From Ehretia macrophylla (Eukaryota; Streptophyta; Magnoliopsida; Boraginales; Ehretiaceae): DNA of 64,000 nucleotides. Location: positions 21,096,840 to 21,160,839 of the forward strand of contig CM075767.1 in assembly GCA_037974665.1 (NCBI GenBank), written 5' to 3'. The notes beneath the pieces were generated by a model. The model was given only the letters and a program-made list of their open reading frames with translations, was not told the DNA's origin and did no database searches. Both the position numbers and the translations under genes were made by a program. Within the stretch, counting starts at the first letter, position 1; the number at the start of each line of letters is the position of its first letter. Shown one piece after another: positions 13,352 through 17,373 of this stretch.

Positions 13352-13587
13352 TGTAACGACTTGAGATTCTTGGGAGAGATTCAAAAATAAAATTTAGAAG
13401 AACATAATGGAAAATTGTATTGAAATGCAAAGCTAAAAGAAATAACAGAAAAGATACAAATAGAAGATAGTTGTTTTTTTTTAGTTTGCTTTGTGCCTAC
13501 TCTCTCCTTTTATAGGTTACTAAACACCTCACATGCCAATTGTCTTAGCCAATTCCAATTACAACTAACTGATGTGGAGTTGTTACA
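13352..13587 (-). repeat. 3' LTR of gene-capturing element
   Basis: 236 bp with TGTAAC...GTTACA ends, nearly identical to 16071-16307. Differences are scattered substitutions and one base of a poly-T run. Confidence 0.9.
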
Positions 13588-13766
13588 TTACATCCCTCAT
13601 TCAAAAGAACCTTGTCCTCAAGGTTCAGTCCCTGATACAAGTCAACAAATTTTTGCTCAATAGCATCCTTAACCTAATCTTTCGACGTTGAACCAAATAT
13701 GTTTGATGCAACAGCTTGATAAAGTGCTGATTCCTTGACCTTCTGGCAATACTCACGCCAGCTGGA

Positions 13767-14168
13767 TAAGACTTCATGGCCATGCACAAGTTTTCCAAAA
13801 ACAATGCATATCCTGTCAAGATAATGATCAGCCTTAAAGATGATATTGAATAGAAAGCCACGTGTATCCCAATCAGCAATTGCCTTTGACAAAAGGCCAC
13901 AACTGTCATGCTTCAGCTTTGGGAACTCATCTGGAAACTTTCCGCCATATATCCTATTTCCATAATTCTCATCTCGTCGAAGCAAGTCACCACCCTGAGC
14001 CAAGAATCCCTTAATAATGCGATAGAAAAACGTTCCTTTGTAATGTAGGGGTCTTCTACTTTTAGGACTATCACCTTTCTTCCTCGTACAAAGTGCATCA
14101 AAGTTCTCAGAAGTTTTTGGAACAACATCAGTGAAAAACCCAAAAACCAATCTTTCAAGAGGATCATC
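13767..14168 (-). pseudogene. Captured cyclophilin fragment (CYP95/CYP63-like)
   Basis: Translation shows DPLERLVFGFF, VVPKTSENFDALCT, PLHYKGTFFYRIIKGFLAQGGD, IYGGKFPDEFPKLKHD and IVFGKLVHGHEVL, the colinear order of a peptidyl-prolyl isomerase domain. The wording (KFPDE.PKL.H, IADRD-like, VFGKL..G.E) is closest to plant SR-type cyclophilins of the CYP95/CYP63 class. The catalytic Arg of F-x-x-R-I is present, but the family's His before it is Tyr. No RS domain follows. An unidentified tail (SSWREYCQKVKES...) joins it to the 3' LTR. Confidence 0.8.
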
Positions 14169-14177
14169 ATCAATCTA

Positions 14178-14705
14178 GACACACTTTGAAATTTCAGGGA
14201 CAATTAACTTTTGGCCACCACGATGTAGTTCAAATTTTCAAAAAATTCCCTGAATTCCAATTGTATACAACATCCGAACAGTGTTGAATTCGGATATTTG
14301 TGTTCTACCCCCGACTGCAAGTTCAAGTGCAACACTTCTGACTCTGCTAGCAATACGACCATGAGATTTTGGGGAGAAACGGTGAGTGTAGTGAGCTATT
14401 GCACCAAAAGAACCTATGCTAATCTTAATCTCTTTAGCAGCAAACATCTTCTGCTCTTTCTTCTGCCATCCAACGGATACAAATGACTCTTGACCTAAAA
14501 CATGTTGTATAAGTCTATTAGTTGTGTTGGATAGTTGACGGGCCCAAGAATTGAAAAGATTAATTGAACCATCTTTCAAAGACATGGTGAGGCCCATTGG
14601 TGCAGTAGGGTGATGAGATAGATGGTGAGTTTTTTGTACCCCTAGCACTGTCTGCATAGCCAATGAACCCATGAATTCAATCGAAGAAACTTGAGACATC
14701 TGATG
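14178..14705 (-). pseudogene. Captured DNAJC11/OWL1-like fragment, C-terminal part
   Basis: Translation contains [67 protein letters not shown] and [14 protein letters not shown], then FELHRGGQKLIVP in a shifted frame near 14237. These are recognisable blocks of the C-terminal region of plant DNAJC11-type proteins. The fragment ends near 14178, where a cyclophilin fragment starts. Confidence 0.75.
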
Positions 14706-14931
14706 TCTTAGGAGAACAGATGCACCACCAGCCTCCTTAATCTTCTTCTCAATAATCTTAGAAACAAGCTTAGCCTTAACAACAAAAGGTTGACCAGATG
14801 GTAAAGCACCTTTACCCAAAACCTTAAAGTACCCAAACTGATCAGTGACATAAATCATAGAAACATTATTTCCATTTGACTTGTCTTTGACCTCTTGTGG
14901 CACCATTGACCAGAGCTTGTCGATATTGATT

Positions 14932-14969
<38 letters not shown>

Positions 14970-14972
14970 ACG
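14706..14972 (-). pseudogene. Captured ribosomal protein L27a fragment (C-terminal part)
   Basis: The translation from [15 protein letters not shown] through [20 protein letters not shown] and [20 protein letters not shown] matches the C-terminal 85 or so residues of cytosolic 60S ribosomal protein L27a. It stops within a few residues of the usual C-terminus. It lies between two parts of the DNAJC11-like fragment, as expected from template switching rather than from duplication of one genomic block. Confidence 0.85.
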
Positions 14973-14988
14973 CATAATGCCATCACTA

Positions 14989-15363
14989 TCTAAAAAAATG
15001 TGGCAAGGACAAATTTTCCAGAATTGAACTAGATGGTCGGATATGCACATAGATTTTTTCTTGTTCCTTCTGGCGCCGTAGCCTCTCAAGCACTTCCTTG
15101 ATCTCTTCAATTTTATTCAGTTTTGGACCAAGTTCCAAGCCAGAAGTCAATCCTTCCATGCCATATATATCATATATCTGCCTTTTATTTTCATCAAATA
15201 ATATTTCATAGGCTTCACATATTCGTTGAAAGTTCTCCGTTGCAATTTCTTTCATCCGAGGGTTTTGGTATTTATCAGGGTGATAAACTTGAGCCCATTG
15301 ACGATAAGCTTTTCTGATTTCTTCATCTGAAGCGTCGGGTGAGACGTGAAGCATAGCATAAAT
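14989..15363 (-). pseudogene. Captured DNAJC11/OWL1-like fragment, N-terminal part with J-domain
   Basis: The translation contains a near-complete J-domain with the HPD tripeptide intact ([11 protein letters not shown]), then [21 protein letters not shown] and [16 protein letters not shown]. This matches the plant DNAJC11-type protein known in Arabidopsis as OWL1. It ends at [14 protein letters not shown], inside the region that follows the linker helix. The same donor resumes at 14705 after an interposed ribosomal-protein piece. The sequence is colinear coding sequence, so an mRNA template is likely. Confidence 0.8.
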
Positions 15364-15468
15364 AATCTTCGCAAATAACTCCCTTGCCGAATCCATGAGC
15401 ATAGAAGTATATGAAACACAATTCTTTTTAGGCATTTTATCAAACAGTTCATGTGCCTCATCTCTCTT
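15364..15468 (-). pseudogene. Captured PPR-like fragment
   Basis: About 35 residues, containing [21 protein letters not shown] and then [10 protein letters not shown], look like one and a half degenerate pentatricopeptide repeats of the plant PLS type (usual pattern A-x-ELFDKMP-x-KN-x-VSYTSM). It is fused in frame between the coiled-coil and J-domain fragments. Confidence 0.6.
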
Positions 15469-15675
15469 AGCCTTAATAAGCTTCTGCTCGCCTAATCGCT
15501 TCAATGGCTCACTCAAATCATTCTCCACCAATCTCTTTTCGTCGACCAAACTCTCGATTCTCTTCTCCTTCTCATTCTTTTCGCCTACAAGTTCATCAAT
15601 CTCCCGCGCCATCGCCTTTCGGGTCTCCAATCCTTCAACACACTTTTTCTCCAATTCAGCCACGCTGCTACGCAA
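15469..15675 (-). pseudogene. Captured coiled-coil fragment
   Basis: An open stretch of about 69 residues is rich in Glu, Lys, Arg and Leu with heptad spacing ([33 protein letters not shown]). It is a typical long coiled-coil segment, perhaps from a plant organelle-division factor or kinesin-like protein; the donor cannot be named with confidence. It runs in frame into the PPR-like and J-domain pieces. Confidence 0.55.
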
Positions 15676-16045
15676 CGTTTCCTCACCAAATTCGTAGTCA
15701 TTGTCATCTTGGATTTGGGTTTCGGGCTAGGTCGGGCAGTACTTGAGTTGTAGAGCCTTCCACCTTTTTTTCTACTTCATCTTGGGTATGTTGTTAGGTC
15801 GAGTTGTACTTGAGCTGCAGAGCTTTCCACCTGATCTCCACCTCGTTTAAAGCCAACTGCGTTTGTTGAGTTTTGAGGTGCTGTGAATCGAAAGGCGATG
15901 GTGTAATTTGTGGCTGGTGATAGTAGTAGTATTGTTGATATGGGTAGTATTGGTGGGATGGGTAGTAGTGTTGATAATCACCTTGTTGTTAGGGATAGTA
16001 TAAGTGAAAATCACCATTAGCAATGAGGTTCGTTCCTTCCGCCAT
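15676..16045 (-). pseudogene. Tyr/Gln-rich leader segment with internal duplication
   Basis: On the minus strand an ATG at 16043-16045 opens a short frame (MAEGTNLIANGDF) that stops early. The following sequence encodes a Tyr/Gln/His-rich stretch and then a helical piece (ALNEVE.RWKALQLKYNST). About 36 bp encoding the WKALQLKY part is duplicated, at about 15731-15766 and 15797-15833. Its source is unknown: it could be the remains of a gag leader or a captured low-complexity exon. Confidence 0.4.
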
Positions 16046-16070
16046 GTTCGACTCTCAACGAAAGCACCAA

Positions 16071-16307
16071 TGTAATGACTTGAGATTCTTGGGAGAGATT
16101 CAACAGTAAAATTTAGAGGAACATAATGAAAAATTGTATTGAAATGCAAAGCTAAAAGAAATAACATAAAAGAAACAAATAGAAGATAGTTGTTTTTTTT
16201 TTAGTTTGCTTTGTGCCTACTCTCTCCTTTTATAGACTACTCAACACCTCACATGTCAATTGCCTTAACCAATTCCAATTACAACTAACTGATGTGGAGT
16301 TGTTACA
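16071..16307 (-). repeat. 5' LTR of gene-capturing element
   Basis: 237 bp, with TGTAAT at its left end and GTTACA at its right end. It carries a TATAAAAG box on the minus strand (16227-16234). The sequence next to it on the minus strand starts TTGGTGCTTTCG, where a primer-binding site would be expected; I cannot assign the tRNA. Confidence 0.85.
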
Positions 16308-16312
16308 CATAG

Positions 16313-17373
16313 TAGGTTCTTTTCATGGGTTTACCCCTTGTTCCCTTCACTCTGAGAATGGCTTGGTGGACGTGGTGGTTCAGTCGTCTGGTGGGTTTGA
16401 AGTAGCTGTTAAAGAGGATTGTCCTCCGTTGCCGTCTACAATGGTGGTTCAGTGTAGTAGTTCTGATGATGGTGATGCAGACGCTGAGGCTGGTGGCTTG
16501 GCTTCTTGGGTGGCAGTTGGGGATGATTGTGCTTTGAGCTCCTCTAGTGGTGTGGTCCCGAGCTCGCTAGATGGAGAGTATGTTATTCTTCCTAAGGAAG
16601 TTGTTGAGGAAGGTAGCAAGCTCTGGCGAACTTGTCTTGTTGGCCAGTTCATTGACCAAGCTCCTCCATTCTTTCAGGTCAAGGCTATGGTAGACAATAA
16701 ATGGATGAAGTATGGCAAAGTTGATGTGATGACAAAGGAGAATGGTCTGTGGTTGTTTAAGTTAGGGAATGATCAGAATTGCGATAAGATTCTTGAAGAT
16801 TGTTGGCACGTTAATGGAAGGCCTTTATTCCTTCGTAAATGGCAGCCTAAGCTTCATCCTGTCCACTTGAAAACGGACAAATTAAGGAATATTCGGACGG
16901 AATATTGGAAAGACGAAGGACTTAGCTATTTGGCGAGTGGGGTTGGTGTTCCTTTGTAGCTGGATAAGTTCATAGAGGTAAGAACTAAAATTAAATATGC
17001 CCAGATGTGTGTAGAGGTTGACTTAAAGAATCATCTAGTGGAGACGCTTACTCTTGAAATGGGGAAAAGTGAAATTACTGAGGTGTCTATTAAGTATGAA
17101 TAGAAACCGAGAATTTGTTCTAAATGTAAAGGCATAGGTCATGTGGAGACCAGGTGTGTAGCAAGATCTGAGTGGAGAGCGAAACCTGATCAGCAAAAGA
17201 AGGATGATGAGGGCGCTCGTTCTGATGGTGAGGCTGTGGATTCGAGAGAATGGAGCTCGATGGGTAAGAGGGAAAAATCCCCCAAGTGTGAAATAGAAAG
17301 GGGTATTAGTAGGTCTGGCTCGCCAAGTAAGAATGACCAAGGTGTTGTGATGGCAAGTGGTAGTAAGAAGTAG
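16313..17373 (+). pseudogene. LINE ORF1 (DUF4283 plus zinc knuckle), interrupted
   Basis: ORF1 starts at the ATG at 13273 (MAKNNHSKKS...), is cut at 13351 by the LTR element, and resumes at 16313. Omitting that element and one TSD copy keeps the frame open across the junction. The DUF4283-like nucleic-acid-binding region lies at about 16560-16870 (motifs EYVILP, GQFID, WHVNGRPLFLRKWQP). The CCHC knuckle C-x2-C-x4-H-x4-C (CSKCKGIGHVETRC) is at about 17113-17154. In-frame TAG codons at 16957, 17101 and 17371 disrupt it; the last may be the natural end. In L1 elements ORF1p binds element RNA to form the particle for reverse transcription. Confidence 0.8.

Follow-up and report, generated by a model that had tools for sequence, protein, structure and literature searches.

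How could one long terminal repeat (LTR) retroelement come to hold coding pieces of several unrelated host genes, all in one orientation? The question arises from positions 13352-16307 of a 64,000-nucleotide stretch of the Ehretia macrophylla genome (the window, on contig C4), for which a preliminary description, made from the letters alone, had proposed repeated template switching between co-packaged mRNAs. We searched the assembly from which the window comes (1.58 Gb, 20 contigs), and conclude that the mosaic very likely arose when reverse transcription jumped repeatedly from one packaged RNA to another, under some filter for open frames, in a non-autonomous Ty3-type LTR lineage. The element is 2,956 bp long, has its sense on the minus strand, and is bounded by intact direct repeats of 236 and 237 bp with TG..CA ends, as had been described; these are 94-95% identical, with a Kimura two-parameter (K2P) divergence of 0.058. 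A primer binding site beginning TTGGTGC.. follows the 5' LTR, and a purine tract, in relatives GGGGGAGG, precedes the 3' LTR. The target duplication is imperfect (CTATG/CCATA, two mismatches), and a query of the joined flanks, representing the empty site, matched solely the window's own two flanks. The earlier statement that gag and pol are absent is correct for Pfam domains, none of which was found for either in the element, but the ends appear to retain short gag-like and pol-like remnants. Terminal-repeat retrotransposons in miniature (TRIMs) are very short elements without coding sequence; the present element, with its length and long frames, is not of that class.

Pfam searches of the sense frames of the window gave matches to cyclophilin (7e-26), DnaJ (1.6e-21), the DNAJC11 beta-barrel (3.3e-11) and L27A (5.1e-10), in agreement with the earlier naming of a cyclophilin domain, of J-domain and C-terminal pieces of a DNAJC11-like protein (DNAJC11/OWL1-like), and of a C-terminal piece of ribosomal protein L27a (RPL27a). 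The PPR-like piece, also named before, matched weakly in the window copy (0.047); the relative L028, however, has a PPR match of about 1e-5 directly after a stretch common to both elements, which supports that reading. With L028 as query, the coiled-coil piece of the earlier list matched six plant coiled-coil proteins at 40-49%. Donor loci for three of the about seven donors of the window mosaic were located in the same genome. The DNAJC11 piece aligned to one gene on C1 in eight separate stretches (91-96% identity) and the cyclophilin piece to a gene on C10 in seven (86-100%), both being continuous in the element. Twelve introns are thus missing from it, six for each of these donors, and wherever a donor was found, the captured piece showed no intron. 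The RPL27a piece matches two neighbouring loci on C15 and lies within the DNAJC11 piece, an arrangement noted earlier and confirmed in the donor alignment; the words TATGC, at the joint from DNAJC11 to L27a, and TGGTGC, at the joint back, are each common to both donors. Pieces in other family members also lack donor introns: three for aldo-keto reductase, two for PSMD12 (RPN5), five for enolase and three for a thioredoxin-like piece that we presume to be PDI, giving a total of 25 missing introns across six donor genes. No poly-A tails were seen by eye among the joints read. None of the 99 homologous proteins listed carried both L27A and DNAJC11 domains, and therefore no known host gene of this mosaic turned up. 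Neither of the two observations that the preliminary description named as refuting was thus made. The loss of introns and the short shared words at the L27a joints support the repeated template switching proposed earlier; the co-packaging of the RNAs we infer.

The list of pieces given in the preliminary description was right in what it named and appears to have missed two. Judged by its relatives, the window copy seems to retain, as the 21 nt preceding cyclophilin, the remainder of a PSMD12 piece; in type B (a second mosaic, below), L022 and L027 this piece is long. What follows cyclophilin would be PRPF40, since its counterpart in L027 is continuous with a PRPF40 FF domain. PSMD12 and PRPF40 are named by Pfam in the relatives, not in the window copy. 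From the shared joints, it seems that an older PSMD12-cyclophilin-PRPF40 element acquired DNAJC11 cargo and so became the window mosaic.

The same mosaic (type A), between the same LTRs, is present in other copies with target duplications. Three further full-length copies are 95, 94 and 93% identical to the window copy and have perfect 5-bp duplications (TCTTC, CAAAC and CATTA). Ten family elements were read by eye for such duplications: six were perfect, L012 and L019 had one mismatch, the window copy had two, and in L017 none was found in register. LTR divergence (K2P) was 0.030 in L009, 0.082 in L010, 0.109 in L011 and 0.073 in L012, and corresponds to about 1 to 4 million years at the mutation rate of 1.3e-8 used for dating. 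L012 is the fifth copy (C7:28283209-28288533). Where its coiled-coil piece meets the PPR piece it carries about 2.5 kb of additional sequence, edged by a 12-nt repeat of the element, and its DNAJC11 part has a deletion. L013 and L014 are partial copies.

The LTRs, leader and tail are common to a wider family; of 564 first-look candidates in the assembly, 40 were scored. Examined members fall into at least 12 arrangements and carry about 23 Pfam-named gene families, by a hand count at E <= 1e-3; a few matches lay just under the Pfam cut-off, namely MCM in L027, pectate lyase in L026 and the NAD-binding part of malic enzyme in L037. Type B comprises five copies, 94-95% identical to L016, with the same LTRs and 3' end and with aldo-keto reductase, PSMD12 and cyclophilin pieces. 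In two of these, L016 and L018, the whole cargo is read in a single frame, 818 and 799 codons long between stops (758 and 746 when counted from the leader methionine). The cargo of other members consists of Argonaute, Sec15 and cyclophilin (L020); amine oxidase (L021); Piwi, aldo-keto reductase, PSMD12 and cyclophilin (L022); pectate lyase and DEAD, about 5 kb without named cargo, then MutS-V, alanyl-tRNA synthetase and cyclophilin (L025); pectate lyase (L026); TAF12, PSMD12, cyclophilin, PRPF40, MCM and UDPGT, with one 716-codon frame (L027); PPR and Nodulin-N (L028); enolase and the thioredoxin-like piece (L034); PPR (L035); enolase, malic enzyme, UDPGT and PPR (L037); and PPR, TPR and NOG1, with one 604-codon frame (L038). 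L036 gave no Pfam match in the single frame scanned. When family frames were compared with other species, one query returned one PPR protein, with 5% of the query covered, and another returned six coiled-coil proteins of the donor type. Four members with the same query ranges lie inside 600 kb at C1:30944728-31535817, perhaps as a segmental array, and the cyclophilin segments of L022 and L023 (C18, 78.2 and 74.6 Mb) are 98.8% alike, perhaps by segmental duplication.

The captured pieces show a strong bias in orientation and in reading frame. No antisense frame of at least 60 aa matched Pfam at 1e-3 among 90 from 11 relatives (a set that leaves out the middle of L034, type A and L025), and none of the six plus-strand frames of 71-111 aa in the window element did so at 0.01. 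Short sense frames of the same 11 relatives (28-54 aa) also gave no match at 1e-3 (0 of 148); small out-of-phase pieces were therefore not simply missed. Distinct neighbouring donor pairs were in phase in 20 of 23 cases as against an expected one third (P 1.6e-7), and 16 of these 20 lay within one open frame. When both matches were at least 55 aa long, all 11 pairs were in phase. The pairs were listed by hand from Pfam tables, with unnamed stretches between some of them and with leader and tail pairs left out; scoring the DnaJ-L27A pair from the window copy gives 19 of 23 (P 1.7e-6). In the window, L27A and DNAJC11 lie in one frame, and a frame at 15726-14986 spans the coiled-coil/PPR/DnaJ joints, as the earlier claim of long frames across fusion joints had it. 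The earlier statement that all pieces read colinearly in one orientation held for the orientation; in the window copy, however, DnaJ and L27A do not share a phase. The tail-bearing frame stops 43 nt into the 3' LTR in eight relatives (L016, L017, L019, L020, L021, L025, L026 and L028), 40 nt into it in L013 and 19 nt in L018. The tails of L021, L026 and L028 are out of phase with the preceding named cargo.

The number of stop events points in the same direction. In type B, two were seen in the frame against 11.4 expected, compared with 10 against 11.0 and 15 against 11.5 in the shifted frames; in the cyclophilin segment alone the depletion is no more than suggestive. As evidence for a frame filter the joint phases carry more weight, the stop counts being a small sample. 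We considered purifying selection on the proteins and rejected it: dN/dS (the ratio of nonsynonymous to synonymous divergence) of the cyclophilin part across types was 0.70-1.84, against 0.56-2.47 in shifted frames, and for the whole type B frame it was about 0.66 uncorrected (the mean of ten ratios) and 0.93 corrected. The amino acids are near-neutral in evolution.

These data bear on how the pieces entered the element. Processed pseudogenes made by long interspersed nuclear elements (LINEs) might have been inserted serially, one nested in another, into a single LTR element and trimmed later. The pieces do lack introns, and LINE-like sequence adjoins the element, but they are internal fragments, present in the sense orientation only and mostly in phase, with short words common to both donors on either side of L27a and no poly-A at the joints read by eye, and we regard this origin as very improbable. 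Capture at the DNA level, whether by a process like that of Helitrons or Pack-MULEs or by rearrangement of the genome within an LTR element, is scarcely credible. Helitrons and Pack-MULEs carry captured genomic DNA with its introns, and this is not what the family contains: genomic capture would retain introns, and 25 are missing from six donor genes, common though gene fragments are in such transposons according to the portions of PMC2774510 and PMC13317346 available to us.

The frame bias itself could be explained in other ways. If the fused frames were host-useful chimeric genes under protein selection, with the LTR family merely spreading them, long open frames would be accounted for, such as those of two of the five type B copies, as would a depletion of stops that lies mostly among changes private to single copies. 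This explanation seems decidedly unlikely to us, given a dN/dS of about 0.9 with no difference from shifted frames, a cyclophilin part that is unconserved between types, and the neutral decay of type A. Alternatively, in-phase joints may be a by-product of switching at codon-aligned short matches, with no RNA filter involved; the ATG within the TATGC joint is in frame in both donors, as read by eye. We consider this unlikely as well, since it leaves the type B stop depletion unexplained and we know of no three-base rule in template switching.

Template switching by reverse transcriptase is a textbook route of exon shuffling for retroelements, and the preferred reading, template switching among packaged RNAs with an open-frame filter, would proceed as follows. 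A non-autonomous Ty3-type lineage would keep its LTRs, primer site, gag start codon and pol tail while the interior is replaced by host coding sequence. Host mRNAs would be packaged along with the element RNA, and during minus-strand synthesis the reverse transcriptase would switch templates at short matches, thereby joining spliced sense fragments. Co-packaging of older and newer element RNAs could let the PSMD12-cyclophilin-PRPF40-tail block be inherited while the upstream cargo changes. RNAs open from the gag start codon to the stop just inside the 3' LTR would spread best, perhaps because an early stop creates a long 3' untranslated region and exposes the RNA to nonsense-mediated decay; long 3' untranslated regions can trigger decay in plants. 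The origin and enzyme source may be a chromovirus-like Ty3 element. A Ty3 element of the same genome, lying inverted inside a family member, points to this. Its gag (Retrotrans_gag, 1.1e-11) starts with MAEGT, a match of five residues to the family leader, its reverse transcriptase matches at 1.2e-34, its primer site has the family's core, and its pol ends in NLEDKV after a weak chromodomain match; L032 has a pol end of the same kind. The inverted Ty3 gag-pol occupies L021 1-2913 and L039 from about 490 (C20:45645089-45650412). It abuts the family member at their primer sites, an identical 20-nt word being present at either end, and perhaps entered by recombination or as a one-LTR form and not as an ordinary nested copy. 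More tentatively, the family might act as a continuing exon-shuffling engine in which an RNA-level filter, probably nonsense surveillance before packaging, passes mainly in-frame fusions and so yields long open chimeric proteins without amino-acid selection, a possibility that we lean against.

Several observations weigh against template switching with a frame filter. One or more stops separate the partners in four of the 20 in-phase pairs, three of the 23 pairs are out of phase (all three involving matches shorter than 55 aa), and the window copy has a shifted joint at DnaJ/L27A, a pair that lies in one frame in L012. The type B depletion comes from five copies, and without L016, which defines the frame, the count is 2 against 8.9 (P 0.0066). 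In addition, of 211 changes in type B, 167 occur in a single copy, and therefore much of the stop depletion concerns changes that probably followed insertion; a filter on spread does not explain depletion among these, which would fit kept copies equally well. Type A shows plain decay without depletion (17 stops seen against 14.4 expected, four copies). The dN/dS found in the family's frames, about 0.9, is no better than that of shifted frames. Intron-free stretches of PSMD12 (C16:53158624 and C5:34373359) and of the PDI-like gene (C18:45150246) occur elsewhere in the genome, and for this reason capture may have run through retrocopies or other elements, with an intron-free intermediate donor, instead of directly from mRNA. 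The chromodomain matches beside NLEDKV are below the Pfam cut-off (0.0013 in L032, 0.00069 in L039), no autonomous element with this family's LTR was found in the genome, and the family is known here from genome sequence alone.

The coordinates of the features are collected below. Within the leader, at 15715-15832, a 51-nt unit is repeated at 78% identity, and the motif RWKALQLKY is encoded twice.

Features of the element and its flank in the window
Feature	Position	Strand	Basis
5' LTR (TGTAACA..TTACA)	16071..16307	-	direct-repeat comparison
Primer binding site TTGGTGCTTTCGTTGAGAG	16052..16070	-	core common with Ty3 element of same genome
Leader: ATG with MAEGT (gag-like start), then Tyr/Gln-rich stretch	15729..16045	-	gag-like start suggested by five-residue match
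Plant coiled-coil (cingulin/golgin-like) protein piece	15478..15726	-	protein matches
PPR-like piece, common to many family members	15361..15476	-	Pfam and relatives
N-terminal DNAJC11 piece (J domain)	14972..15360	-	donor C1:5889739-5891591, without 1 intron
RPL27a C-terminal piece	14722..14976	-	donor loci C15:36186002 and 36189458 (92-93%)
C-terminal DNAJC11 piece	14196..14730	-	donor gene as for N-terminal piece, without 5 introns
Putative PSMD12/RPN5 relic, about 21 nt, from older family member	14175..14195	-	comparison with L016, L022 and L027
Cyclophilin piece	13768..14174	-	donor C10:69141948-69145589, without 6 introns
Putative PRPF40 piece	13675..13767	-	L027 counterpart continues into PRPF40 FF domain
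Tail with LNLEDKV and purine-rich tract adjoining 3' LTR	13591..13671	-	resembles pol end of related Ty3 elements
3' LTR	13352..13587	-	direct-repeat comparison
Flanking target sequence, LINE-like, DUF4283 (3.4e-11)	16308..16959	+	frame and Pfam match

Many related mosaics with common blocks in one genome make the order of capture, the length of switch words and the phase bias measurable. They also suggest, in a form open to test, that mRNA surveillance influences which retroelement RNAs spread, and that new genes could draw on the long open frames produced. In the literature covered by our limited search, neither such a family nor such a frame bias is described. The preliminary description had likened the window element to Bs1 of maize with more donors, an apt comparison that understates the case, as many different mosaics have the same LTRs. 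Bs1 is reportedly the subject of work by Jin and Bennetzen (1994) and by Elrouby and Bureau (2001, 2010). In the part of PMC13317346 that deals with it, Bs1 is an LTR element that carries parts of three host genes (ATPase, xylan endohydrolase and glucanase) and a hybrid open frame. Host fragments without introns, in sense orientation, and a hybrid open frame across donors all occur in the present element; in contrast to the three donors of Bs1, it has about seven, and about 23 gene families occur across the examined members, in many mosaics with common ends and inner blocks. Captured coding fragments of host genes are also reported in LTR elements of maize, rice and sorghum, as far as the available portions of PMC2774510 and PMC3726574 go. 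The maize survey counted 425 intact gene-bearing elements, derived from at least 189 captures, and under its authors' conditions no single element combined fragments of several nuclear genes (available portions of PMC2774510). Bs1 is the standing exception; unlike those single-gene elements, the present family is multi-gene. In Veju TRIMs and BARE-2, by the account in the available text of PMC13317346, switching between packaged RNAs likewise yields new element forms, but these took in unknown or other-element sequence, whereas the present family took in a series of host coding fragments. Compared by description, the present family is of the Bs1 kind, at a much larger scale.

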